From Bradyrhizobium sp. ARR65 (GTDB lineage: Bacteria > Pseudomonadota > Alphaproteobacteria > Rhizobiales > Xanthobacteraceae): a stretch of DNA of 64,000 nt. The notes below the pieces were generated by a model. It was not told the DNA's origin. It saw only the letters and a list, made by a program, of their open reading frames with translations, and did not search any database. Shown piece after piece: positions 30,100 through 45,124 of this stretch. Location: the NCBI RefSeq assembly GCF_000472385.1, contig NZ_AWZU01000012.1, positions 62,001 to 126,000 on the forward strand, given 5' to 3'. Both the position numbers and the translations under genes were made by a program. Numbering within the stretch: the first letter of the stretch is position 1; each line of letters opens with the position of its first letter.

Positions 30100-32466
30100 A
30101 TGCTCGAGAAGAATTACGACAGTCAGGTCCATGTCGAGCAGGTTGAAGAGCGTCCCACGGGGAGCATCGCCTTCGGCCTGGAGCGGATCGGGCTGATCGC
30201 GGTCAAGGCGCCGATCCTGTCCTGCATCATTCTGGCCGCCCTCGTCGTCGCCGCCGTGTTCGGCATCCAGCGCATCAAAATCGACGATTCGCTCTCCCAG
30301 CTATTCCGCTCCGACACCAAGGAATTCCACCAGTACGAGGAGGTGACCAAACGCTTCCCGGCCGAGGAATTCGATGTGCTCGTCGTCGTCGAAGGCAAGG
30401 ACCTCCTGGCGCGCGACAATCTGGAAAAGCTGCGCGACTTCGTCACCGACCTGCAGCTCGTCGACGGCACGCGCGGGCTGGTGTCACTGTTCTCCGCCCG
30501 GCAGGCCCCGGCTCCGGGCAAGTTGCCGGCCGCGCTGTTCCCGAGCGAACTGCCGACCGGAGAGGCCTATAACAAGTTCATCGAGACCGTCAAAAGCAAC
30601 GAGATCATTCGCGGCAAGCTGCTCTCGGAAGACGGCACGCTGGCGTTGATCGTGCTGTCGCTCGAGCCCGATGTCGTCTCCTCGAATAAGCTCGCCACGA
30701 CGGTCGGCGATATCCGCAAGCTGGTGTCGCAGGACCTCGGCGATACCGGACTCAACGTCGAACTCTCCGGCGTGCCGGTCATGCAGCTCGAGATACGCAA
30801 CGCGGTGGAGCGCGACGGGCTCACCTATAATGTCCTCGGCATCGTTGCCGGTTGCGTCATCGCCATCATCTTCTTCCGCAAGATCTCCTTTATGGTCGTG
30901 GCGGCATTCCCCCCGATGATCGCGATCCTGCTGGCACTCGGCGGGCTCGGCTGGGCCAATTTCAACCTCAACATGTTCCTGAACGTGATGACACCGCTCA
31001 TCATGGTGATCAGCTTCTCCGACTCGATGCAGCTCACTTTCGCTGCACGCGACCGGCTGATCGCGGGGCAGGACAAGTTTACCGCGTTCAAGAACGCGGT
31101 GCTGGTGGTGGGACCTGCCTGCGTGCTGACGCACGCGACCGCCGGCATTTCCTTCATCGCCCTGCAGTTCTCCGACTCCGACCTGATCCGCAAGTTCGGC
31201 GAGGCAGGCTTGGCCGCGACCATCATTGCGCTGCTGGCCGTGCTGTCGCTGGTGCCGGTGTTCGGTGTCCTGCTCGTGCGCAACGAGAATGTCTTCGCGG
31301 TCAAGTTCCAGCGCGCCGACGCCGGCGTGCAGATGCTGCGCAATTTTTGCTACTGGATCGCGGTGCGCATGGTCAGCCGTCCCGGCCTGTTCAGCCTGAT
31401 CGCGGTGTTGTTCGTAGGCAGCCTTGGGGTGGTCTATGCCAACCTGCAGCCGCGCTACCGGCTCGCCGACCAGGTGCCGGACAAGCGACAGGCGGTCGCG
31501 GCGAGCGAGCGGCTGGACGCAAAGCTCACCGGCGCCAATCCGATCAACGTGCTGATCGAATTCCCCAAGGGCGCATCGCTCTATTCGCCTGAGACCTTGC
31601 AGACGATCGCCGATGTTCACGCTACGGTCGAGCGCGCGGCCGGCGTGGGCAACGTCTGGTCACTGGAGACGCTGCGCCGCTGGCTCGCCGAAAAGGTCGG
31701 CACCACCGATGTCGGAACATTGAAGGAATATGTCGACCTCATTCCCAAATATCTGGTGCAGCGCTTTATCGACCCCGAACAGGACGCGGTCGTGGTGGCG
31801 GGCAGGGTGCCTGACAAGGACTCCAGCCAGCTTCTGCCTGTGGTCGAGAAGCTCGACCATGAACTGGACGCGGTACGCAAGAAGCACCCGGGCTATGAGA
31901 TCGCTGTCACCGGGCTGGCTGCGATCGCCGCGCGCAACTCGGCCAACATGATCGAGAAGCTTAACCGCGGTCTCACGATCGAATTCGCTTTCGTCGCGAT
32001 CTTCATCGGCCTCGCGTTCCGCTCCTGGGTGGTGATGTTGGCCTGCATCCTGCCGGGCATCTTCCCGGTGGTGATGTCGGGCACGCTGCTCTACTTGCTG
32101 GGAGAGGGGCTGCAATTTGCCAGCGTCGTCGCGCTGACGGTGTCCTTTGGCCTCGGGCTAAGTGCGACCATCCATTTCCTGAACCGCCTGCGCTTGCAAA
32201 CCAAGCCTGGCGTCACCTCGGCAGTGGCGGTAGAGCGCGCCACCGTGCTGGTCGGTCCGGCACTGATCCTGACGACGGTGGTGCTGGCCTGTGGCCTTGG
32301 CGTTACTATCTTCTCCGACCTGCCTTCGCTGCGGCTGTTCGGCTGGCTCAGCGCGTTTTCGATGGTGGCAGCGCTTGTCGCCGACCTCTTCATCCTGCGG
32401 CCGACCGCGATGTGGCTGATCAATCTGCACGAGCGCATCCACGGGCCGGAGAAACGCTCGGTGTGA
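30100..32466 (+). CDS. MMPL/RND-family exporter, HpnN-related
   Basis: A 788-residue inner-membrane protein of the MMPL branch of the RND superfamily. It has one membrane helix near residue 40, a periplasmic loop and a five-helix bundle (about 250-420). A second loop and a second five-helix bundle follow (about 640-780, EFAFVAIFIGLAFRSWVVML). Conserved MMPL segments are YNVLGIVAGCVIAIIFF, SFSDSMQLTFAAR and VSFGLGLSATIHFLNR. MMPL proteins export lipids; HpnN, encoded at 40447, carries hopanoids to the outer membrane. This second, shorter member lies next to the probable hpnP, so a lipid cargo is plausible. The 245-base gap before it holds no gene. Confidence 0.82.
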   Translation: MLEKNYDSQVHVEQVEERPTGSIAFGLERIGLIAVKAPILSCIILAALVVAAVFGIQRIKIDDSLSQLFRSDTKEFHQYEEVTKRFPAEEFDVLVVVEGKDLLARDNLEKLRDFVTDLQLVDGTRGLVSLFSARQAPAPGKLPAALFPSELPTGEAYNKFIETVKSNEIIRGKLLSEDGTLALIVLSLEPDVVSSNKLATTVGDIRKLVSQDLGDTGLNVELSGVPVMQLEIRNAVERDGLTYNVLGIVAGCVIAIIFFRKISFMVVAAFPPMIAILLALGGLGWANFNLNMFLNVMTPLIMVISFSDSMQLTFAARDRLIAGQDKFTAFKNAVLVVGPACVLTHATAGISFIALQFSDSDLIRKFGEAGLAATIIALLAVLSLVPVFGVLLVRNENVFAVKFQRADAGVQMLRNFCYWIAVRMVSRPGLFSLIAVLFVGSLGVVYANLQPRYRLADQVPDKRQAVAASERLDAKLTGANPINVLIEFPKGASLYSPETLQTIADVHATVERAAGVGNVWSLETLRRWLAEKVGTTDVGTLKEYVDLIPKYLVQRFIDPEQDAVVVAGRVPDKDSSQLLPVVEKLDHELDAVRKKHPGYEIAVTGLAAIAARNSANMIEKLNRGLTIEFAFVAIFIGLAFRSWVVMLACILPGIFPVVMSGTLLYLLGEGLQFASVVALTVSFGLGLSATIHFLNRLRLQTKPGVTSAVAVERATVLVGPALILTTVVLACGLGVTIFSDLPSLRLFGWLSAFSMVAALVADLFILRPTAMWLINLHERIHGPEKRSV

Positions 32467-33825: not shown

Positions 33826-34002
33826 CGCGTTAACAATTGCCATCGCGCCCCCGCAAAAGCCGGGCCGGGGGCGGCGGAACACCCAGACAGCATTGGTTTT
33901 GAAAGCATATTCGCCTATATGGGAGCCGTGCTTCGCGGTTTTGCGCGAAGATCGTTTGGTGACCTTCAGGCCTTCGCGCCCAACGGATGTAGCCAGTTCC
34001 CG

Positions 34003-34881
34003 ATGACCGCCGCGAGCGAATTGCGATCCGGAAAGACGCACCGCGACGAGAACTTTCCGGTCGCCTCGTTTCTGATTCACCCGCGGCACCGAGCGCTGAT
34101 TCTCGCCTTCTACAATTTTGTCAGGACCGCCGACGATATCGCCGACCATGCAACGCTCGCAGCAAGCGACAAGCTCGCCTATCTCGACCTGCTCGAGGCC
34201 GAGTTGCTCGGCAAGGGCGACAGCCAGAAAGAGGCGGTTATTTTGCGGCGGGCGCTCGCCGAGCGCGGCATGCCGCCGCGCCACGCGCTTGATCTGCTCG
34301 CCGCATTCCGGATGGACGTGACCAAGCTGCGCTACGAGAACTGGGACGACCTCATCCACTATTGCCGCTATTCCGCGATGCCGGTCGGCCGCTTCGTGCT
34401 GGACGTCCATGGCGAGAGCACCTCGACCTGGCCGGCCAATGACGCACTCTGCGCGGCGCTGCAGATCAACAACCATTTGCAGGATTGCGGCAAGGATTTT
34501 CGCAATCTCAATCGCGTCTACCTCCCGCTCGACGCGCTGGAGGCCTCGGGTGCATCGGTCGAAATGCTTGGAGGCGACAAAGCGCCGGCGGAGCTGCTGC
34601 AGTGTCTGCAGGCGCTCGCCGCGCGCAACGAGCGTCTGCTCGAAAACAGCAAATCGTTCAGCGCCGAAGTGAAGGATTTTCGGCTTGGGCTTGAAATCTC
34701 GGTGATCTATGCCTTCGCCGAGAAGATCGTGCGGTTGCTCAAAGTCCGCGATCCCCTGAGCGAGCGGGTGCATCTGAGCCCGCTCGAGCTGCTCTTCTAC
34801 ACTCTGGGCGGCATGGCCGCCGAGACGGCGCGCCGCGTAATGGGCCGGCGGCCCGTGTCTAAAGCGGCGGCGGGCCGATGA
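34003..34881 (+). CDS. hpnC: Hydroxysqualene synthase HpnC
   Basis: A 292-residue prenyl-synthase-fold protein. In the HpnCDE route HpnD makes presqualene diphosphate, HpnC turns it into hydroxysqualene and HpnE reduces that to squalene. The two Asp-rich motifs are DDIAD (44-48) and QDCGKD (Asp161, Asp165). The family N-terminus ELRSGKTHRDENFPVAS is present. The start at 34003 (MTAASEL) is chosen because homologues begin there; an ATG at 33919 would add 28 residues of unlikely sequence. The stop overlaps hpnD in ATGA. Confidence 0.9.
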   Translation: MTAASELRSGKTHRDENFPVASFLIHPRHRALILAFYNFVRTADDIADHATLAASDKLAYLDLLEAELLGKGDSQKEAVILRRALAERGMPPRHALDLLAAFRMDVTKLRYENWDDLIHYCRYSAMPVGRFVLDVHGESTSTWPANDALCAALQINNHLQDCGKDFRNLNRVYLPLDALEASGASVEMLGGDKAPAELLQCLQALAARNERLLENSKSFSAEVKDFRLGLEISVIYAFAEKIVRLLKVRDPLSERVHLSPLELLFYTLGGMAAETARRVMGRRPVSKAAAGR

Positions 34882-35717
34882 CGGTTCAAGCTGCCGCGTC
34901 TGATACCAATTACGGCACGACTGCGTCCGGCAGTTCGTTCTATGCCGCCATGCGCATCCTGCCGCGCGAGCAGCGCGACGCGATGTTTCAGATCTACAGC
35001 TTCTGCCGCCAGGTCGACGACATCGCCGATTCCGACGGCCCGCGCCCGGAGCGGCTGAGGGCGCTGCAGCAGTGGCGCGAGGACATCGATGCGCTGTACC
35101 GGGGCAATCCGCCGCCGCGTCTGCGCGACTATGGCGCCTCGGTGAAGAAATTCGGCCTGCAGCGCGAGGATTTCCTCGCCATCATCGACGGCATGGAAAT
35201 GGACGTGCCGCAGGAGATCCGCGCGCCGGACCTTGCGACGCTTGATCTCTATTGCGATCGTGTGGCGAGCGCGGTCGGGCGGCTCTCGGTGCGGGTGTTC
35301 GGGCTGCCCAGCGATGATGGCATTCTGCTCGCTCATCATCTCGGCCGGGCGCTGCAGTTGACTAATATCCTGCGCGACATCGACGAGGACGCGAGCCTCG
35401 GCCGGCTCTACCTGCCGCGCGAGGAGCTGGAAAAGAACGGCGTCACCTCGACCGACCCGCTCAAGGTCGCGACCGAGAAAGCGCTGCCGAAGGTTTGCGC
35501 GGCGCTGGTCGAACGGGCGCGGGGCCACTTTATCGAGGCCGACAAAATCATGGCGCGCTACCCACGCCGCGTCGTGCGCGCGCCGCGGATCATGTCGAAA
35601 TATTATCACGCGATCCTGCAACTGCTGATCGCGCGGGGATTTGCGGCCCCGCGCGCGCCGGTGCGCGTCAGCAAATTCGCCCGCCTCGCCATCGTCTTGC
35701 GCTACGCCTTCATCTGA
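34878..35717 (+). CDS. hpnD: Presqualene diphosphate synthase HpnD
   Basis: A 279-residue squalene/phytoene synthase-family protein. It joins two farnesyl diphosphates into presqualene diphosphate. Asp-rich motifs are VDDIAD (46-51) and LRDIDEDASLGRLYLP (Asp167, Asp171). FYAAMRILPREQRDAM near residue 21 is typical of the family. It is translationally coupled to hpnC (four-base overlap) and to hpnE (one shared base). Confidence 0.9.
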   Translation: MTVQAAASDTNYGTTASGSSFYAAMRILPREQRDAMFQIYSFCRQVDDIADSDGPRPERLRALQQWREDIDALYRGNPPPRLRDYGASVKKFGLQREDFLAIIDGMEMDVPQEIRAPDLATLDLYCDRVASAVGRLSVRVFGLPSDDGILLAHHLGRALQLTNILRDIDEDASLGRLYLPREELEKNGVTSTDPLKVATEKALPKVCAALVERARGHFIEADKIMARYPRRVVRAPRIMSKYYHAILQLLIARGFAAPRAPVRVSKFARLAIVLRYAFI

Positions 35718-36970
35718 TGCCAAAGACCGTCCACATCATCGGCGCCGGAATTTCGGGCCTGTCCGCGGCCGTACGGCTGGCAGACGCGAACCATCAAGTG
35801 CATGTGCACGAGGCCACGCAGCAGGCGGGCGGCCGCTGCCGTTCCTATTTCGACGCGGCGACCAATCTCACCATCGACAACGGCAACCACCTGCTGCTGT
35901 CAGCCAATCATCATGCGCTGGCCTATGCGCGCGCCATCGGCAGCGAGAAGGGGTTGGTCGGGCCGGCGCGGGCGCAGTTTCCCTTTGTCGATCTAGCGAC
36001 CGGGCGGCGCTGGCAGCTCGACCTTGGTGATGGGCGGCTGCCGCTTTGGGTGCTCGATCCAAGCCGCCGCGTGCCCGATACCAGCTTGGCCGACTACCTT
36101 GCGCTGGCGCCCTTGATCTGGGCCAAGGAGAGCAAGCGGATCGACGAGGCCATCCGCTGCGAGGGCACACTGTATCATCGGCTGGTGCAGCCACTCCTGC
36201 TCGCAGCGCTCAATCTTGATCCGCCCGAAGGCTCGGCAGGCCTCGCCGGCGCGATCGTGCGCGAGACCCTGCTCGCCGGTGGGCAGGCTTGTCGGCCGCT
36301 GATCGCACGCGACGGCTTGAGCGCGGTGCTGATCGAGCCTGCGATCAAGCGTCTCCAGGCCAAGGGGGCGAGTGTCCGCATCGGTCATGAGCTGCGCGAG
36401 CTCGTGATGGCGGGGGACCGCGTCAGCGCGCTGAAATTCGGGGGCGAGGACACCATCCCGCTTGGCGTGGATGATGCCGTGGTGCTGGCCGTGCCGCCGC
36501 GGGCGGCGGCCTCGCTGCTGCCGGGCCTGAAAACGCCGACGAAATTCCGCGCCATCGTGAACGCGCATTTCCGCTTTGACCCGCCCCGCGATGCGCCGCC
36601 CATCCTGGGCGTCGTCGGCGGGCTCGTGGAATGGCTGTTCGCCTTCCCACAGCGGCTCTCGGTCACCATCAGCAATGGCGACCGCCTGGTGGATCAGCCG
36701 CGCGAGGAGCTCGCGCAGGCCATTTGGCGGGACATCTGCAAGGCCGCGGGCGTTGCCGGCGAGTTGCCGCCCTGGCAGATCGTGCGCGAGCGCCGTGCGA
36801 CCTTCGAGGCAACACCCGCGCAAAATGCTCTTCGTCCGGGGCCGGTCACGGCTTTCAAGAACCTGTTTCTCGCGGGCGACTGGACGGCTACGGGACTGCC
36901 AGCGACGATCGAGGGCTCGGTCCGGTCAGGGGACAGCGCCGCGGATCATGTGCTGGCCGCCGGCTCGTAA
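35717..36970 (+). CDS. hpnE: Hydroxysqualene dehydroxylase HpnE
   Basis: A 417-residue FAD-dependent amine-oxidase-family protein. It reduces hydroxysqualene to squalene. The dinucleotide motif GAGISGLSAAVRLA begins at residue 9, followed by VHVHEATQQAGGRCRS. The C-terminal FAD segment is NLFLAGDWTATGLPATIEGSVRSG. The start at 35717 shares its A with the hpnD stop (TGATG). It should supply squalene to a squalene-hopene cyclase, but that gene is not next in line here. Confidence 0.9.
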   Translation: MPKTVHIIGAGISGLSAAVRLADANHQVHVHEATQQAGGRCRSYFDAATNLTIDNGNHLLLSANHHALAYARAIGSEKGLVGPARAQFPFVDLATGRRWQLDLGDGRLPLWVLDPSRRVPDTSLADYLALAPLIWAKESKRIDEAIRCEGTLYHRLVQPLLLAALNLDPPEGSAGLAGAIVRETLLAGGQACRPLIARDGLSAVLIEPAIKRLQAKGASVRIGHELRELVMAGDRVSALKFGGEDTIPLGVDDAVVLAVPPRAAASLLPGLKTPTKFRAIVNAHFRFDPPRDAPPILGVVGGLVEWLFAFPQRLSVTISNGDRLVDQPREELAQAIWRDICKAAGVAGELPPWQIVRERRATFEATPAQNALRPGPVTAFKNLFLAGDWTATGLPATIEGSVRSGDSAADHVLAAGS

Positions 36971-37226
36971 CGCCGGCAAACGAACGGCACGCGCTTTGCT
37001 TGTTAGGGTTGCGGGCGGGATAGATCATCCGGCCGTGGCGCGCAGGGGCGATACCCACTTGCAACACATTCCGAAAAAGGCTTGTGGAACGGCGACGTTC
37101 GATGGCAACCGGATTTCCACGGGTATTTTATCTGCGCTAGATGGGTATTGTGAATTCGTCCCGCCGAGGGGGCCGGTGCGGGATCGGAATTGAAAACACC
37201 AACAGCAGGGTGGCAGGGGTCGAGAA
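36971..37226 (+). other. hpnE-hpnG gap: expected squalene-hopene cyclase gene is absent
   Basis: Only 256 bases separate hpnE and hpnG. In related rhizobia and Rhodopseudomonas the roughly 2-kb shc (hpnF) gene usually lies in this interval. None of the frames shows a cyclase hallmark such as DXDDTA or QW repeats, nor an obvious cyclase start or end fragment. No repeat or mobile element scar is evident. Confidence 0.7.
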
Positions 37227-37961
37227 GTGAGTTTGGGGGCGGAGGACGAGGCTACCGCGGATAAGGGGATCGATCCGCGGCCAGTTCTGATTGTGACCGG
37301 TCTGGTGCAGGAGGCCCGCATTGCGGCTGGCCCTGGCATGGTTGTCATTTGCTCGAGCAGTGATCCCAAACAGTTGCGCGCGCTGCTGACCGTGTTTGAT
37401 CCGACGACGATCCGCGGCGTCATCAGCTTTGGCGTGGCGGGCGGCCTCGATCCGTCGTTGAAACCGGGCGATATCGTGCTGGCTACCGAAGTCGTCGCCG
37501 GCGACGGCCGCTGGCTCGCCGAGCTGTCCTTGAACGAAGAGGTGGTGGCGAGCGTGGCGCTCAGGCGCCGGCGCATCATCCGTGGCGGCCTTGCCGGGGC
37601 GGAGGAGGTGGTTGCCGCCCAAGCCCGTAAGGCGGCCCTGTGGCTGCAGACGGGCGCTAAGGCGGTCGACATGGAAAGCCACATCGCCGCGGCCTATGCG
37701 GCCGATGCCGGCCTGCCGTTCGCGGCGCTGCGCGTGATCAGTGATTCGGCTCACCGCTCGCTGCCGGCCCTTGCCAAATCGGCGATTAGGCCGGATGGCA
37801 AGGTCGATCTGCGCAAGATCTTCTCCGGCGTGGTCCGCAATCCGCGGACACTCAGCGCGCTGGTCTCGACCGGGATCGATTTCAACCGCGCGCTGCGCTC
37901 CTTACGCGGCTGTCGAGGCTTTCTGCTTGGCAGCGAGGGCCTCCTCGCGGCGGATCTCTGA
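37227..37961 (+). CDS. hpnG: Hopanoid phosphorylase HpnG
   Basis: A 244-residue nucleoside-phosphorylase-family protein. HpnG removes adenine from adenosylhopane, giving a phosphoribosyl or ribosyl hopane on the way to bacteriohopanetetrol. Features are VIVTGLVQEARIA-type LIVTGLVQEARIA, GVISFGVAGGLDPSL, VDMESHIAAAYA with the family's Met-Glu-Ser motif, and ALRVISDSAHRSLP. The GTG start has AGGGG upstream. Its last 60 bases overlap, on the opposite strand, the end of hpnH. Confidence 0.88.
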   Translation: MSLGAEDEATADKGIDPRPVLIVTGLVQEARIAAGPGMVVICSSSDPKQLRALLTVFDPTTIRGVISFGVAGGLDPSLKPGDIVLATEVVAGDGRWLAELSLNEEVVASVALRRRRIIRGGLAGAEEVVAAQARKAALWLQTGAKAVDMESHIAAAYAADAGLPFAALRVISDSAHRSLPALAKSAIRPDGKVDLRKIFSGVVRNPRTLSALVSTGIDFNRALRSLRGCRGFLLGSEGLLAADL

Positions 37962-39050
37962 GAGCTTCTTCTGGACCTGCTCTGAGAAGATGTACTGCGC
38001 CGGGCGCTGCTTGGAGAGGTCGATCTCCGGCGCCATGGGACCCGTGGTGCGGATGCCGCGCAGCGCCACCCACATCGCCTTGAGCGGGTTGTTGATCGCC
38101 GCCGTCGCCGCGGTCGGCTCGTAACCGCAATGCGCCATGCAGTTGGCGCACTTCTCGTACTTGCCGGTGCCGTAGGAATCCCAGTCGGTGGTCTCCATCA
38201 GCTCCTTGAAGGTCTTGGCGTAACCTTCGCCCAGCAGATAGCAGGGCTTCTGCCAGCCGAAGATGTTGCGCGCGGGCATGCCCCACGGCGTGCATTCGAA
38301 ATTCTGGTTGCCGGCCAGGAAGTCCAGAAAAAGGCCCGAATGCATGAAATTCCACTTCTTGCCCTTGCCCAGCGCGAAGACGTCGCGGAAGAGCCGCTTG
38401 GTCTTGGTGCGGTTGAGGAAGTGCTCCTGATCGGGCGCGCGCTCATAGGCATAGCCCGGCGACATCGATACGCCGACGCCGAGCTCGGTGCAGAAGTCGA
38501 GGAATTTGGCGATCTCTTCCGCCGGATGGCCGTCGAAGATGGTGGCGTTGACGTTGACGGTAAAGCCGCGCGCCTTCGCCGCCTTGATCGCGGAGACGGC
38601 GCGGTCGAACACGCCCTTCTGCGAGACCGACTTGTCGTGGTGATCGCGCAGGCCGTCCAGATGCACGGAGAAGAACAAATAGGGTGAGGGCTCGAACAGG
38701 TCGAGCTTCTTCTCCAAGAGCAGCGCGTTGGTGCACAAGGAGACGAACTTCTTGCGCGCAACGAGGCCCTTGACGATCTCGCCGATGTCCTTGTGGATCA
38801 GCGGCTCGCCGCCCGGAATTGCCACCATCGGCGCGCCGCATTCGTCGGCAGCGTCCAGGCATTCCTGCACCGTCATGCGGCGGTTGAGGATAGCGTCGGG
38901 ATAGTCGATCTTGCCGCAGCCGGCGCAAGCGAGGTTGCAGCGAAACAGCGGCTCCAGCATCAGCACCAGCGGATAGCGCTTCCGGCCGAGCAGCTTCTGC
39001 TTGATCAAATAGCTGCCGATACGCAGCTCCTTCAGGAACGGTATTGCCAT
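37902..39050 (-). CDS. hpnH: Adenosylhopane synthase HpnH (radical SAM)
   Basis: A 382-residue radical SAM enzyme. It joins a 5'-deoxyadenosyl radical to diploptene to give adenosylhopane, the first step of side-chain extension. The cluster cysteines are 38, 42 and 45 (FRCNLACAGCGK). GGEPLIHKDIG and FFSVHLDGLRDHHD follow, and the C-terminal half has further cysteines (KYEKCANCMAHCGYEP) as in HpnH. It is transcribed with ispH, 36 bases downstream of it, and converges on hpnG. Confidence 0.92.
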   Translation of the reverse strand: MAIPFLKELRIGSYLIKQKLLGRKRYPLVLMLEPLFRCNLACAGCGKIDYPDAILNRRMTVQECLDAADECGAPMVAIPGGEPLIHKDIGEIVKGLVARKKFVSLCTNALLLEKKLDLFEPSPYLFFSVHLDGLRDHHDKSVSQKGVFDRAVSAIKAAKARGFTVNVNATIFDGHPAEEIAKFLDFCTELGVGVSMSPGYAYERAPDQEHFLNRTKTKRLFRDVFALGKGKKWNFMHSGLFLDFLAGNQNFECTPWGMPARNIFGWQKPCYLLGEGYAKTFKELMETTDWDSYGTGKYEKCANCMAHCGYEPTAATAAINNPLKAMWVALRGIRTTGPMAPEIDLSKQRPAQYIFSEQVQKKLSEIRREEALAAKQKASTAA

Positions 39051-39086
39051 TACGGGTTTTCTTTCTCGAGTCTCAACGGTTGCCGT

Positions 39087-40043
39087 TCAGCCTGCCGCCA
39101 ATTCGGCGGGCAGGCGAAATTCAATATTTTCTTCCCGACCCGGCAGCACCGATACCGTCACCGGGCCGATACGCCGGAGCGCCTCAATAACGTCGTCGAC
39201 TAGCACTTCCGGCGCCGAAGCACCGGCGGTGATGCCGACGGCCCTGGCGCCCTTCAGCCAGTCGGGGTTTAATTCGCTCCCGTCCGCAATCAGATAACTC
39301 GCGACGCCGGCCTCGGTGCCGATTTCGCGCAATCTGTTCGAATTGGAGCTATTGGCGGCCCCCACCACCAGGATCACATCCACCAGCTTGCTAAGATCCC
39401 TTACCGCAGTTTGCCGGTTCTGTGTCGCATAGCAGATATCCCGGATATCCGGTCCTTGAATATCTGTAAATTTGGCCTGGAGCGCCGCGATGATGTCCTT
39501 GGTGTCGTCGACCGAAAGGGTGGTCTGCGTGATGTAGGCCACCGGCGTATCCGCTTGCAGCGTCAGAGCCTTCACATCCTCGACATTCTGCACCAGGAGC
39601 ACGGGACCGGGGACCTGGCCCATGGTGCCCTCGACCTCGGGATGGCCGGCATGTCCGATCAGGATCACGGTCCGGCCCTTCGACATGTAGCGCTTGCCCT
39701 GATTGTGGACCTTGGTCACGAGCGGGCAGGTCGCATTGAGCACCGGCAAGCCGCGCTCGGCGGCCTCCTCCTCGACGGAGCGCGCCACGCCATGGGCGCT
39801 GAACACGGTCACCGCCATCGGCGGCACCTCCGAGAGATCCTCGACGAAGATGGCGCCCTTGTTTTTCAGGCTTTCGACGACGTATTTGTTGTGCACGATC
39901 TCGTGGCGCACATAGACCGGCGGTCCGTACTTCTCCAGCGCACGCTCGACGATCTCGATCGCGCGGACCACGCCGGCGCAAAATCCGCGCGGCTGCGCGA
40001 GATAGATCTGTCTCGGATGTTCGTTATCCGTACCCAAACTCAT
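39087..40043 (-). CDS. ispH: 4-hydroxy-3-methylbut-2-enyl diphosphate reductase
   Basis: A 318-residue iron-sulfur enzyme of the MEP pathway. It makes isopentenyl and dimethylallyl diphosphate, the isoprenoid precursors. The three cluster cysteines are Cys22 (PRGFCAGV), Cys106 (NATCPLV) and Cys204 ([11 protein letters not shown]). [16 protein letters not shown] and [11 protein letters not shown] are family hallmarks. As first gene before hpnH it links precursor supply to hopanoid synthesis. Confidence 0.95.
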
Positions 40044-40446
40044 TCCTCGTCACCTCCGGGTGCCACGAACATCTGCAATCTCCGCACCACCACGATGTTT
40101 CCTGTTCCCGGTCCACGCGAGCCGCGCGGGAACCAGGGGTTTGTGTCAAAAATTCAGCAGCGCGAAAGGCAGATCGGCTCAGAAACGGGCCGCGAGCCGA
40201 TGCGGTACTATAGTAGTCAGCGCTAAGTTACGGAAGCTAAAGCCCTTATTACCTCACGTGTTCGCCACTTTACCGCCCAGCAATCCCGGTTATATCAGCC
40301 GCATCGCGTGAGCGCTGTCGTTTTCCTGCCACGCTCGGGCAGTCCTTACGAGGAAGAAAGTTCAAATCCAGGTTAATCCGGCCTAGGAAACGCCGCCAGA
40401 CAGCCGGACGTTTCCGGCGACCCCTGAACCATTAGAAAGAAAAGAA
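40044..40446. other. Gap of 403 bases between divergent ispH and hpnN
   Basis: It should carry both promoters. I see no gene, no tRNA-like cloverleaf and no copy of the palindromic repeat families. Short A/T-richer patches occur near 40201-40270, the likeliest promoter area. Confidence 0.5.
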
Positions 40447-43035
40447 GTGCTGACAAGTATCGTTGTTTCGATCGTCAGAGCCTGTACCCGATTCGCCGTT
40501 CTGACTTTACTTGTCGGATTCGCTCTGGCGATTGCGGCCGGCTATTACACGGCGCGGCATTTTTCCATCAACACCGACATCAACACGCTGATTTCGGAGA
40601 AGCTGGATTGGCGCCAGCGCGATCAGCAGTTCGACCGGGCCTTCGATCGCGACAGCACGATTCTGGCCGTGGTGGAAGCGCCGACGCCCGAACAAACCAT
40701 CGCCGCAGCGAGCGCACTCCTGGACAAGCTCAAGAGCGACACCACGCACTTCATGTCGACGCAGCCGCTCGGCTGGGGCGAGTTCTTTGACAGGGAAGGC
40801 CTGCTGTTTCTGCCGACGGAGGAAGTTCGCGAGATCACGGGCCAATTCGAATCCGCCGCGCCCCTGGTCGAGATCATGGCGGGCGATCCTTCGATCCGCG
40901 GGCTCACCGGTGCGCTGGAGACCGGGCTTGCCGGCGTCAAGCGCGGCGAGGTGAAGCTCGACAACACCGCGCGGCCTTTCAACATGATTGCGCAGACCGT
41001 GGAGGACGTCCTCAACAAGCACAACGCCAACTTCTCCTGGCGTGCGCTCACCAGCGATCAACCGCTCACAGATTCCGACAAGCGCGCCTTCATCGAGTTC
41101 AAACCGGTCCTGGATTACAATGCGCTCGAGCCTGGCAGAGCGGCCACCGATGCAATCCGGAGCGCGGCTGCCGACCTCGACTTTGCCGGCAAATATCAGG
41201 CGCGGGTCCGCCTGACCGGGCCGGTGCCGATCGCCAACGAAGAATATTCGACCGTGCAGGAGGGCGCGATCATCAACGGGATCGGCACCGTGATCGTGGT
41301 GCTGGTCATCCTGTGGCTCGCGCTGCACTCGGCGAAGATCATCCTGGCCGTGTTCGTCAACCTGTTCATCGGGCTTGCGATCACCACGGCCGCGGGATTG
41401 GCGCTGGTGGGCTCGCTGAACATCTTGTCCGTCGCCTTTGCGGTGCTGTTCGTGGGCCTGGGTGTGGATTTCGGCATTCAGTTCAGCGTCCGCTACCGCT
41501 CGGAGCGCTTCAAGAACAACGATCTGAAGCAGGCGCTGGCCCAGGCGGCGCGTCGCGTCGCGGTGCCCTTGTCGCTGGCGGCGATGGCGACGGCGGCAGG
41601 CTTTCTGTGCTTCATGCCGACCGACTACAGGGGCATTTCCGAGCTCGGCGAGATTGCCGGCGTCGGCATGCTGTTTGCGTTTCTCTCCAGCATCACCGTG
41701 CTGCCGGCATTGTTGACCCTGCTCAACCCGCCCGGCGAGAAGGAGCCAGTCGGCTATGCCTTCCTGGCGCCGGTCGATCATTTTCTGGAGAAGCACCGTA
41801 TCCCGATCGTGGTTGGCACGCTGGCCGTGTCGGTGGCCGGCCTGCCGCTGCTCTACCAGATGCGGTTCGACTTCAACCCGATGCATCTGCGCAATCCGAA
41901 TGCCGAGTCGATCGCGACCTATCTCGACCTGCGCAAGGATCCGAACACCGGCGCCAGCGCCATCAATGTGCTGACGCGTTCCGATGCCGAGGCCCAGCAG
42001 ATCAAGGCGAAGCTCGAGAAGCTGCCGGAGGTGCTGCGCGTGATGTCGCTGGATAGTTTCGTGCCGGAGGACCAGGGACCGAAGCTGAAGCTGATCGCGC
42101 AGGCCGCGAAGACGCTTGGTCCCGCGCTCAATCCTGATTCCGTCGATCCTGCGCCCTCCGATCAGGAGAACATCGATTCCCTGAAGAGCTCGGCTGCCGC
42201 CCTGCGCCGCACGGCGGGCGACGACAAGGGGCCGGGTGCCATGGCCTGCCGACGGCTCGCCGATGCCTTGGAAAAACTCGCCGCCGCGACTGAGGCCACG
42301 CGCAACAAGGCGCAGGCGATTTTCGTCACCCCGATGAATGTCGTATTCAACCAGCTAAGGAGCGCGCTGCAGGCGCAGCCGGTCAGCCTGGAGACGCTGC
42401 CGCAGGGCTTGGTGCGCGAATGGAAGAGCAAGGACGGCCTGATGCGGGTCGAGGCGCTGCCGCGCGGCGATCCCAATGATAACGATAATTTGCGCAAATT
42501 CGCCAGCGCCGTGCTCGCCGCCGAACCGACCGCGATCGGTGGGCCGGTCTCGATCTTGAAATCGGGCGACACCGTGGTCAGCGCCTTTGTCCATGCGGGC
42601 ATCTACGCGCTTGTGGTGATCAGCCTGTTGCTGTGGATCACGCTGCGGCGGATCACCGACGTGCTGATGACGCTCGTGCCGCTGTTGGTCGCGGGTGCCG
42701 TAACGCTGGAAATCTGCGTGCTGATCGGGCTGCCGCTCAACTTCGCCAACATCGTCGCGCTGCCGCTCTTGCTCGGCGTCGGCGTTGCGTTCAAGATTTA
42801 TTATGTCACGGCGTGGCGCTCGGGAAGGACGAATCTGTTGCAGACCAGTCTGACGCGGGCGATCTTTTTCAGTGCCATGACCACGGCGACCGCTTTCGGC
42901 AGCCTCTGGCTGTCGAGTCATCCCGGCACATCCAGCATGGGCAAACTGCTCGCGCTTTCGCTGTTGACCACGCTGGCCGCCGTGCTGCTGTTTCAGCCTG
43001 CGCTAATGGGCAAGCCCCGCGATATCAGGGAGTAG
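40447..43035 (+). CDS. hpnN: Hopanoid transporter HpnN (RND/MMPL family)
   Basis: An 862-residue inner-membrane exporter that moves hopanoids toward the outer membrane. It has an N-terminal membrane helix (LLVGFALAIAAGYYTA), a periplasmic domain and a first five-helix bundle (about 278-430, VEFGIQ-type GVDFGIQFSVRYRSERF). A second periplasmic domain and a second bundle follow (about 720-855). The GTG start at 40447 follows GAAAGAAAAGAA, a weak ribosome site. Its last 33 bases overlap the end of the opposite-strand DUF2147 gene. Confidence 0.9.
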   Translation: MLTSIVVSIVRACTRFAVLTLLVGFALAIAAGYYTARHFSINTDINTLISEKLDWRQRDQQFDRAFDRDSTILAVVEAPTPEQTIAAASALLDKLKSDTTHFMSTQPLGWGEFFDREGLLFLPTEEVREITGQFESAAPLVEIMAGDPSIRGLTGALETGLAGVKRGEVKLDNTARPFNMIAQTVEDVLNKHNANFSWRALTSDQPLTDSDKRAFIEFKPVLDYNALEPGRAATDAIRSAAADLDFAGKYQARVRLTGPVPIANEEYSTVQEGAIINGIGTVIVVLVILWLALHSAKIILAVFVNLFIGLAITTAAGLALVGSLNILSVAFAVLFVGLGVDFGIQFSVRYRSERFKNNDLKQALAQAARRVAVPLSLAAMATAAGFLCFMPTDYRGISELGEIAGVGMLFAFLSSITVLPALLTLLNPPGEKEPVGYAFLAPVDHFLEKHRIPIVVGTLAVSVAGLPLLYQMRFDFNPMHLRNPNAESIATYLDLRKDPNTGASAINVLTRSDAEAQQIKAKLEKLPEVLRVMSLDSFVPEDQGPKLKLIAQAAKTLGPALNPDSVDPAPSDQENIDSLKSSAAALRRTAGDDKGPGAMACRRLADALEKLAAATEATRNKAQAIFVTPMNVVFNQLRSALQAQPVSLETLPQGLVREWKSKDGLMRVEALPRGDPNDNDNLRKFASAVLAAEPTAIGGPVSILKSGDTVVSAFVHAGIYALVVISLLLWITLRRITDVLMTLVPLLVAGAVTLEICVLIGLPLNFANIVALPLLLGVGVAFKIYYVTAWRSGRTNLLQTSLTRAIFFSAMTTATAFGSLWLSSHPGTSSMGKLLALSLLTTLAAVLLFQPALMGKPRDIRE

Positions 43036-43608
43036 GCAGATGTCGCCGACCGGATCGTTCGGATGGGCGGACGCGTGCTTCTGAGCAGGCGAGGTGGCCG
43101 CACCGGTGGTCCGCGGCGGGTTGGGCACTGTCGGAGGCGCGTTGCTCTTCGGAGCACCGCCTTTCGCCATGCTGTTGGCGGGGCTCGAGGGAATCGGCGG
43201 CGCGACGCGGGTCCAGGTCTCGCCGCCGCAGAGAAAGCCGAGCACGCAGCCCTGAATTTCGAGATGGTTGGGGTCGGTGGGCTTGATGGTAGAACTATAG
43301 GTCTGCCCATCCTTAGCGTTGTAGACTTGCCCCTCCCACTGATCGGTGCTGGGCTTTTTCTTCATATCGAGCAGGATTGGCATGCCCAAAGTCGGCCTAT
43401 TCCGTTTTGACGGATCGGGGTTATTGGTGTCGCGACCGCCCGGCTCTTTCTCCCAGGCGATCACGCCCCACATGTCGCCATTACATTGCGCAACCCGGAC
43501 ATTTGCGACACCATCGGCCACCCGCCAGTCTCCTGTCGGGTCAAGAGCCAAAGCAGGCACGATGCTACTGAGAAGAAAAACCCCCGAAAAAATACCGACT
43601 TTACGCAT
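43003..43608 (-). CDS. Secreted DUF2147 protein
   Basis: A 201-residue exported protein. A Sec signal (GIFSGVFLLSSIVPALA) precedes LDPTGDWRVADGVANVRV, the start of the DUF2147 domain, which ends near residue 125 (LEIQGCVLGFLCGGETWTR). The remaining 75 residues are Pro/Ala/Ser rich and probably disordered. DUF2147 proteins are periplasmic, with no defined activity. The start at 43608 (MRKVGIF) fits the signal; the upstream ATG adds eight residues. It overlaps hpnN tail-to-tail by 33 bases. Confidence 0.82.
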   Translation of the reverse strand: MRKVGIFSGVFLLSSIVPALALDPTGDWRVADGVANVRVAQCNGDMWGVIAWEKEPGGRDTNNPDPSKRNRPTLGMPILLDMKKKPSTDQWEGQVYNAKDGQTYSSTIKPTDPNHLEIQGCVLGFLCGGETWTRVAPPIPSSPANSMAKGGAPKSNAPPTVPNPPRTTGAATSPAQKHASAHPNDPVGDICLLPDIAGLAH

Positions 43609-43732
43609 GAACTTTCGTGGGCAGTGCAGCATGGCTCAAACCTGTGCTTGCTTTGAGGGTGTGAATGAGGGCAAAACGCCGCATTGAGCGTTTTCAGTTG
43701 ACGAGATGGCCATCAACCGAAGTATGTAGCTG

Positions 43733-45124
43733 ATGCTAAGTCCGAATCTAGACGTTTCCGAGATGTTTGTTGAGCGTCAGGCGCAGCGTAGCGCCATGCA
43801 TGCGCGCCACCTCAATGAGCAGCTCGTCCGCGTACTCAAAACGATCGGGTACGATGTTGGGTTCCAGAAGGGGCAGGGCCAATATCTCTACGACCGCGAT
43901 GGCGTCCGCTATCTGGATCTGTTGAGCGGTTTCGGCGTCTTCGCCATCGGGCGCAATCATCCCACCTTGCGCGCGGCCTTGAAGAGCGTGCTCGACAGCG
44001 ACCTGCCCAATCTGGTGCAGCTCGATGTCTCGACCCTCGCAGGTGTCCTGGCCGAACGCCTGCTCAAGTTTGTCCCATATCTCGATAAAGTATTTTTCGC
44101 CAATTCCGGCGCCGAGACGGTGGAAGCGGCGATCAAATTCGCGCGCGGCGCGACGGGCCGCCCCGGCATCGTCTATTGCGGCCACGCTTATCACGGGCTT
44201 TCCTACGGCGCGCTGTCGCTGACGGACGACCCGAACTTCCGCAAGGGTTTCGAGCCCCTGTTGCCCGGCTGCACGCCGATCCCGTTCAACGATCTGGCCG
44301 CGCTGGAGCAGGCCCTGTCGTCGCGCGAGATCGCCGGCTTCATTGTCGAGCCGATCCAGGGCAAGGGCGTCAACATGCCGACCGACGAGTTTCTGCCGGG
44401 TGCGGCGGCGCTGTGCAAGAAATATGGCACGCTGTTCATCGCCGATGAAATCCAGACCGGCATGGGCCGTACCGGCCGTTTCACCGCGGTCGAGCATTGG
44501 AATGTCGAGCCCGACATGGTGCTGCTCTCCAAGGCGTTGTCCGGCGGCCATGTCCCGGTCGGCGCGCTGCTCACGCGCAAGAGTATCTTCGACAAGATCT
44601 TCAACCAGATGGATCGCGCGGTCGTACACGGCTCGACATTTGCGAAAAACGATCTTGCGATGGCGGCGGGCATCGCCACGCTCGAAGTGCTGGAGTCGGA
44701 AAAGCTGATCGAGGCCGCCGCCAAGCGCGGCGCAGAGCTCCGGCTGGCGCTGACCCGCATGGTGCCGGGCTACGAGCTGATGAAAGAGGTTCGCGGCAAG
44801 GGCCTGATGATCGGCGTCGAGTTCGGTCCGCCGAAATCGCTGCGGCTGAAGGCGTCCTGGAACGTGCTGGAAACCGCGAGCAAGGGGCTGTTCTGTCAGC
44901 TCATCACCGTGCCGCTGTTCAAGGATCACAAGATTCTCACCCAGGTCGCCGGCCATGGCAGCCATACCATCAAGCTGCTGCCGTCACTCAACATCACCGA
45001 AGAGGACTGCAACTGGATCGCGACCGCGTTCGACAGCGTGATCGCCGCCAGCCACAAGGTCCCCGGCGCGATCTGGTCGCTCGGCAAGACGCTGGTCGAC
45101 AACGCGGTGCGGAAGTCGGCGTAA
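43733..45124 (+). CDS. hpnO: Hopanoid aminotransferase HpnO
   Basis: A 463-residue class III PLP-dependent aminotransferase. HpnO converts formyl-type hopane intermediates into aminobacteriohopanetriol. The PLP Lys is Lys267 in VLLSKALSGGHVPVG, with Asp238 in FIADEIQTGMGRTGRF; the phosphate-binding turn is FFANSGAETVEAAIKFARG. The call over ornithine or acetylornithine aminotransferases rests on its position after hpnN and on the extra N-terminal 40 residues. A palindromic repeat follows its stop. Confidence 0.82.
   Translation: MLSPNLDVSEMFVERQAQRSAMHARHLNEQLVRVLKTIGYDVGFQKGQGQYLYDRDGVRYLDLLSGFGVFAIGRNHPTLRAALKSVLDSDLPNLVQLDVSTLAGVLAERLLKFVPYLDKVFFANSGAETVEAAIKFARGATGRPGIVYCGHAYHGLSYGALSLTDDPNFRKGFEPLLPGCTPIPFNDLAALEQALSSREIAGFIVEPIQGKGVNMPTDEFLPGAAALCKKYGTLFIADEIQTGMGRTGRFTAVEHWNVEPDMVLLSKALSGGHVPVGALLTRKSIFDKIFNQMDRAVVHGSTFAKNDLAMAAGIATLEVLESEKLIEAAAKRGAELRLALTRMVPGYELMKEVRGKGLMIGVEFGPPKSLRLKASWNVLETASKGLFCQLITVPLFKDHKILTQVAGHGSHTIKLLPSLNITEEDCNWIATAFDSVIAASHKVPGAIWSLGKTLVDNAVRKSA

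Follow-up and report, generated by a model that had tools for sequence, protein, structure and literature searches.

The hopanoid locus of Bradyrhizobium sp. ARR65 has lost the gene for the ordinary squalene-hopene cyclase (SHC), shc or hpnF, from its place between hpnE and hpnG, and the only SHC of this genome is an enzyme of a second type, here called SHC2, encoded elsewhere. The locus lies in a window of 64,000 nucleotides (nt), the whole stretch of DNA analysed, to which all coordinates without a genome label refer; the assembly it comes from (8.61 Mb, 139 contigs) is denoted G000, whereas further G-numbers are the genomes and L-numbers the loci compared. The gap between hpnE and hpnG holds a scar of the old gene, and the same state is found in 12 more genomes of the genus. 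We propose that ordinary shc was deleted between hpnE and hpnG with about 250 nt of its 3' end left behind, that this scar still carries the start and the ribosome-binding region of hpnG, and that squalene from HpnC, HpnD and HpnE would be cyclised by SHC2, encoded beside hemH, after which HpnH, HpnG and the rest would act as usual. Part of this scar would later have come under strong new constraint at the nucleotide level in 10 of the 13 genomes. We hold this account as a whole with high confidence.

What remains of the ordinary gene? Searching the window by tblastn with SHC2-type and ordinary SHC queries, we found no intact cyclase gene and a single match below 1e-3, at 36802-37221, which covers residues 513-657 of ordinary SHC (E 8e-6, 30% identity), is interrupted by stops and, judged from this alignment, is a remnant of shc in the hpnE-hpnG gap. 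At the nucleotide level, window 36950-37260, a query that extends into the tail of hpnE and the opening bases of hpnG, matched the intact shc/hpnG junction at all 23 congener loci (blastn, 70-73% over 269-318 nt, E 3e-33 to 4e-46) and the single locus of another genus at E 3e-5. The gap alone aligned to the intact shc 3' end with 73% identity over 248 nt (E 2.4e-38; 22 congener loci, with L021 left out, and one from another genus); the best E among 20 shuffles of the gap was 0.03. The scar starts about 255 nt before the former shc stop, which still overlaps the hpnG start codon, and the ribosome-binding region of hpnG, a purine-rich stretch, is kept. Aligned with intact shc, the scar shows in-frame stops and frame changes, and it differs from L023 at 22, 24 and 38 sites of codon positions 1, 2 and 3, whereas intact shc pairs differ mainly at position 3 (e.g. 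7, 8 and 34). Because the differences spread to positions 1 and 2, unlike those of intact pairs, the former coding stretch has decayed. By these alignments the gap is the decayed 3' end of ordinary shc. A preliminary description of the window had reported 256 non-coding bases here (36971-37226); the length was right, but the bases are the remains of a gene.

The ordinary alphaproteobacterial shc, in the arrangement hpnCDE-shc-hpnG, serves the same pathway step between the same flanking genes and is the source of the scar; relative to that arrangement, G000 has shc deleted save for the 3' end. Scars are present in all 13 SHC2-only genomes, where gaps of 256-600 nt match the shc 3' end with best E values of 2e-38 to 4e-8, and the longest matches (G000, G174, G127 and G060) begin 252-255 nt before the former stop. 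In the genomes tested, neither a 5' leftover of shc after hpnE nor homology to the left of the scar boundary rose above shuffles. Since hpnE and hpnG share one contig in G000 and in the 12 other genomes that equally lack shc there, four of them single-contig genomes (G112, G113, G125 and G262), the missing gene is not an assembly gap.

Pfam and TIGR01507 searches of the assembly returned one SHC in G000, at C1:248044-250143 on the minus strand. It is a full-protein match (PF13243, 435 bits, and PF13249, 336 bits, both with cut-offs of 26; TIGR01507, E 4.7e-194) and is 35% identical to the ordinary shc product, whereas ordinary shc shows 79-95% identity among the congeners compared. Against the Alicyclobacillus SHC structure (1gsz) it scores 555 bits (E 2e-165), versus 444 bits for ordinary SHC; its DXDD motif, PDVDDTA, aligns to identical letters in 1gsz, and the protein contains six matches to Q...G.W, which we take to be the consensus of the QW repeats. 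In a tree of 86 rows, built by a quick method with three duplicate rows left out, one branch with a support of 100 (Shimodaira-Hasegawa-like approximate likelihood ratio test, SH-aLRT) splits 39 SHC2-type from 47 ordinary rows. SHC2 fails as an orthologue of ordinary hpnF, lying on the wrong side of this branch and not between hpnE and hpnG; by sequence, then, the G000 cyclase is of a second type. Its neighbours in G000 are a gene for a 132-amino-acid protein and two genes that we take to be an M3-type peptidase gene and hemH. SHC2 lies 0.6-0.8 kb from hemH in all ten SHC2-only genomes tested (G042, G126 and G240 left out). The plainest empty SHC2 site is that of G015, where the peptidase and 132-amino-acid genes are 13 nt apart; other congeners have other open reading frames (ORFs) there.

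Does SHC2 make hopene? One of the 13 SHC2-only genomes, G060, is that of strain BTAi1, as 8 kb of its 228,826-bp second replicon are 100% identical to NC_009475.1, and its single SHC is SHC2. A shc mutant of BTAi1 was reportedly made in Silipo 2014. In the accessible parts of PMC5613085 this mutant is described as hopanoid-deficient, with a lipid A that lacks its hopanoid. Because BTAi1 has only SHC2 and its shc mutant has no hopanoids, SHC2 very probably supplies hopene in the BTAi1 group, and by this strong analogy it would do so in G000 as well.

Genes of the window were called with NCBIfam models at their curated cut-offs, and the locus reads as follows:

33919-34881, plus strand: hpnC (TIGR03464, 288 bits, cut-off 250)
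34878-35717, plus strand: hpnD (TIGR03465, 353 bits, cut-off 279)
35708-36970, plus strand: hpnE (TIGR03467, 416 bits, cut-off 283; ATG at 35708, stop ending at 36970)
36983-37230, plus strand: decayed 3' end of ordinary shc (hpnF), from blastn against all 23 congener loci and alignment
37227-37961, plus strand: hpnG (TIGR03468, 228 bits, cut-off 187; start codon GTG)
37902-39050, minus strand: hpnH (TIGR03470, 568 bits, above cut-off)
39087-40043, minus strand: ispH (NF002188, 505 bits, cut-off 420)
40447-43035, plus strand: hpnN (NF052374, 1334 bits, cut-off 1100)
43733-45124, plus strand: class-III aminotransferase gene (above the cut-off of no NCBIfam model)

All of hpnC, hpnD, hpnE, hpnG, hpnH, ispH and hpnN had been named in the preliminary description and are confirmed by these scores, as is its statement that shc is missing after hpnE. 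For hpnO, the last gene it listed, there is a gene at the expected position, but the name has no NCBIfam match above cut-off behind it; by position, the aminotransferase gene is presumably hpnO.

Is the replacement of the cyclase common in the genus? We searched 265 genomes with TIGR01507, judging the ordinary type by score and doubtful cases by identity. A match was present in 262, of which 13 have SHC2 only (84-100% identical to the G000 protein) and the other 249 an ordinary-type match. Among 24 congeners checked by position, shc directly follows hpnE in 23, and in the 24th (G016) an SHC fragment there is cut by the contig end. The preliminary description had allowed that close relatives might never carry shc at this place. 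Although 12 further genomes lack it, the surprise of its absence stands, because shc sits after hpnE in the other congeners checked by position. Five genomes (G010, G015, G046, G114 and G198) hold ordinary shc together with an SHC2-type gene at 54-57%, and these genes form a branch of their own. The guanine-cytosine content at third positions is 0.66 and 0.63 in the copies of G015 (L065:9480-11933) and G010 (L066:9116-11164), against 0.85 in the G000 gene, and the G010 copy sits on a 402-kb replicon. As further observations in the survey, shc and hpnG matches fall in one frame of 929 amino acids in G144:C142 and G145:C133 (L118, L132, L117 and L129), an apparent cyclase-HpnG fusion; ordinary shc is split over two frames in the single-contig genomes G255 (C1:2470458-2472271) and G257 (C1:2392388-2394207), which reflects either a broken gene or a sequencing error; and G188 (4.3 Mb, 95% complete), with no SHC match and an HpnG match only below cut-off, is probably without hopanoids.

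Beyond this survey, a scan of named genomes gave 19 loci. Those at 65-87% identity belong to Bradyrhizobium, two Rhodopseudomonas, metagenome-assembled genomes (MAGs) of Hyphomicrobiales and Parvularculaceae-type bacteria; the last two, at 36-38%, are from planctomycetes. Each of the 17 of these genomes that were searched has one SHC gene. Of the 16 SHC2-type genomes with an hpnE locus, 14 have hpnG after hpnE without room for shc, and in the other two the locus breaks off before this can be judged; in the ordinary-shc control, shc occupies this place. SHC2 alone is present in Rhodopseudomonas palustris JSC-3b and R. faecalis (L239, L240), where hpnE lies next to hpnG; the intervening gaps, candidate scars of 209 nt in the former and 211 nt in the latter, resemble the 3' ends of ordinary shc weakly, with best E values of 1e-5 and 1e-3, respectively. 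A sample of 385 genomes of the class yielded 103 with a match at 1e-60; besides G000, eight were SHC2-like (58-63%), and among the rest, long matches had 33-42% identity and fragments as much as 49%.

The scar itself has not had the same fate everywhere. In ten genomes (G042, G060, G112, G113, G125, G126, G217, G240, G249 and G262), a scar stretch of 122 columns has a mean pairwise identity of 0.950, with 103 columns invariant and the best 70 columns at 0.985; the rest of the gap around it is mostly unalignable. By comparison, the 261 columns of four-fold sites in hpnE and hpnG, which flank the gap, have a mean identity of 0.682 across these ten genomes. When 122 of those columns were resampled 20,000 times, the highest value obtained was 0.760, so that 0.950 was never reached, and no run of 41 adjacent four-fold columns exceeded 0.742. 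A genus-wide DNA search with 146 nt of this block recovered the ten genomes at 94-99% and STM 3843 at 82%, and found no match in G000 or G174 at 1e-3. The block was also matched at 72-79% in 67 other genomes, one of them additionally by a short 29-nt match elsewhere. In the 26 whose positions were compared, the match is the 3' end of intact shc, independent evidence that the block derives from there. In 22 intact shc genes, the middle of the block stretch has the lowest synonymous conservation (0.49-0.52, the lowest 1-3% of 651 windows with a mean of 0.74). By contrast, the final ten codons, which cover the hpnG ribosome-binding region, rank in the top 1-3%, and a stretch close to the left edge of the scar ranks in the top 6-8%. 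Given the low constraint in intact shc, the constraint on the block is therefore new, and that on the last bases old.

Pieces of pseudogenes can be co-opted, and here likewise a dead gene remnant is under new constraint; this case differs from co-opted pseudogene pieces generally in that it concerns a bacterium, involves non-coding DNA and can be dated by comparison with intact orthologues from the same genus. We think it fairly probable that in the BTAi1 group the 3' scrap of the dead cyclase gene was co-opted as a nearly frozen non-coding element upstream of hpnG, which would tune the late hopanoid steps or serve some other end. The element is most likely a cis-regulatory region or an unstructured small RNA at hpnG; it may be a new promoter or operator, a leader, or a small RNA on either strand. 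G000, G174 and STM 3843 may represent an intermediate state beside intact orthologues in one genus, and the G000 scar is simply a decayed gene end.

Several points weigh against our account. A single clade of the ten SHC2-only genomes tested is rejected (approximately unbiased test, p-AU 1.3e-7). G174, a groundwater MAG, groups with ordinary-shc genomes in the hpnE, hpnG and five-marker trees, which speaks against a single clean deletion. The hpnG tree unites 12 of the 13 SHC2-only genomes (94/89) and places G174 among ordinary-shc genomes (100/98), and the tree of five markers near hemH, which samples 10 of the 13 and leaves out G020, unites nine (100/99) with G174 apart; these markers lie near the SHC2 locus and so are linked to it rather than independent. 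G020, an ordinary-shc genome, shares an unresolved fork of the hpnE tree with G000 and the 11 SHC2-only genomes other than G174. The SHC2 site was inspected for remnants of SHC2 in 11 ordinary-shc genomes and showed none, which gives no sign that the two genes once coexisted. The mutated BTAi1 gene is taken to be SHC2 because that genome has no other SHC. As for the element, the block folds no better than shuffles (z -0.07 and -1.32), both-sided changes occur in 4 of 83 pairs only, and an Rfam search of four loci gave no match.

The separate position of G174 means either that shc was lost two or more times or that the loss or SHC2 was moved by recombination; the shared scar boundary would favour a common event, whereas the trees oppose one. 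We infer that SHC2 entered from beyond the lineage of ordinary shc, and that it did so before shc was lost. It seems quite possible, though we lean against it, that both SHC types were already present in an ancestor of the genus or of some larger group, and that its descendants later lost either one without any recent transfer. Such a history would fit the shared location of SHC2, next to hemH both in G174 and in the other lineage, the single group formed by the SHC2 of 18 Hyphomicrobiales rows, and an SHC2 identity to Rhodopseudomonas of about 76-79%, a divergence not larger than that of HpnE (74%). It accords poorly with the SHC2 sites of the 11 congeners, which hold no SHC2 remains, with Rhodopseudomonas SHC2 genes that are not beside the hemH neighbours, and with nearest outer SHC2 rows that come from Parvularculaceae, a distant family.

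Could the constraint on the block have another origin? A regulatory element already hidden inside shc and simply retained is unlikely: the conserved last ten codons and left-edge stretch of intact shc would agree with it, but the most conserved part of the block coincides with the lowest synonymous conservation there. We regard a small protein gene, encoding 42 amino acids or more from the cyclase C-terminus, as more doubtful still and rejected it as the main reading. Although all ten genomes keep an open frame that starts with ATG and follows the old shc frame, the variable columns number 7, 7 and 5 at codon positions 1, 2 and 3, without codon periodicity or third-position bias, and in STM 3843 the frame stops at codon 17 even though 82% of the nucleotides are kept. 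For the non-coding element that we prefer, a promoter-like site on the minus strand of the block (one found against 0.1 expected, from shuffles of a 751-base stretch) is only a lead. An antisense small RNA ending in a U run (the complement of AAAAAA) was rejected, as it folds no better than shuffles (z -0.69 to 0.96, ten genomes) and the hairpin is weak; the STM 3843 site did not fit this pattern. A MIR1151 match of 35.9 bits (threshold 90), outside the block, is attributed to chance.

Plain relocation of ordinary shc to another contig is hardly credible. A single intact SHC does lie elsewhere in G000, but relocation is refuted by the SHC tree, whose fully supported branch parts two types only 35% identical, and by the scar, which shows that the old gene left its 3' end behind. 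The preliminary description had offered two ways out, a cyclase encoded elsewhere or a new route to squalene derivatives, and had equated an intact shc elsewhere with relocation. The first holds, with the qualification that the single SHC found is of a different type and thus not the missing gene moved. The second is without support, as SHC2 resembles the Alicyclobacillus enzyme, keeps DVDDTA, and is the only SHC of a strain whose shc mutant is hopanoid-deficient. The missing gene is neither plain relocation nor new chemistry.

In the open-access literature, including the accessible parts of PMC5613085, PMC12583986, PMC11005386 and PMC4743980, we found no account of the cyclase replacement, of the scar or of the element. 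As far as its accessible text goes, PMC12583986 mentions a 'second' Shc group, less than 40% similar to ordinary Shc and outside the hopanoid cluster, which was left out ('data not shown'), and states that all Bradyrhizobium genomes contain shc and that there is no clear evidence of transfer. SHC2 fits that description and may belong to that group; there, however, the 'second' protein stands beside the first, whereas here SHC2 is the only cyclase. SHC2-only lineages would be overlooked or misinterpreted by surveys restricted to ordinary Shc, and the claim of no clear hopanoid-gene transfer in this class needs re-examination. The parts of PMC5613085 and PMC11005386 available treat the BTAi1 gene as 'the shc gene', without mention of a different type or a scar, and the latter sets BTAi1 shc results beside those from B. 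diazoefficiens. Photosynthetic bradyrhizobia, BTAi1 among them, serve as model organisms for the study of hopanoids in symbiosis, and such comparisons involve two enzyme types about 35% identical. Cases in which the remnant of a dead bacterial gene becomes a constrained non-coding element are rare, and this scar provides one that can be tested.

Around the locus, a large RND/MMPL-type transporter gene lies just upstream of the hopanoid genes (30100-32466) and is matched weakly, below cut-off, by HpnN models. Between hpnN and the aminotransferase gene, a small secreted-looking ORF (43003-43632, minus strand) overlaps the hpnN end; a similar ORF occurs near the SHC2 region at L063:848-1573. A second HpnG-like match in G000, at C11:115596-116207, scores 166 bits, below cut-off.

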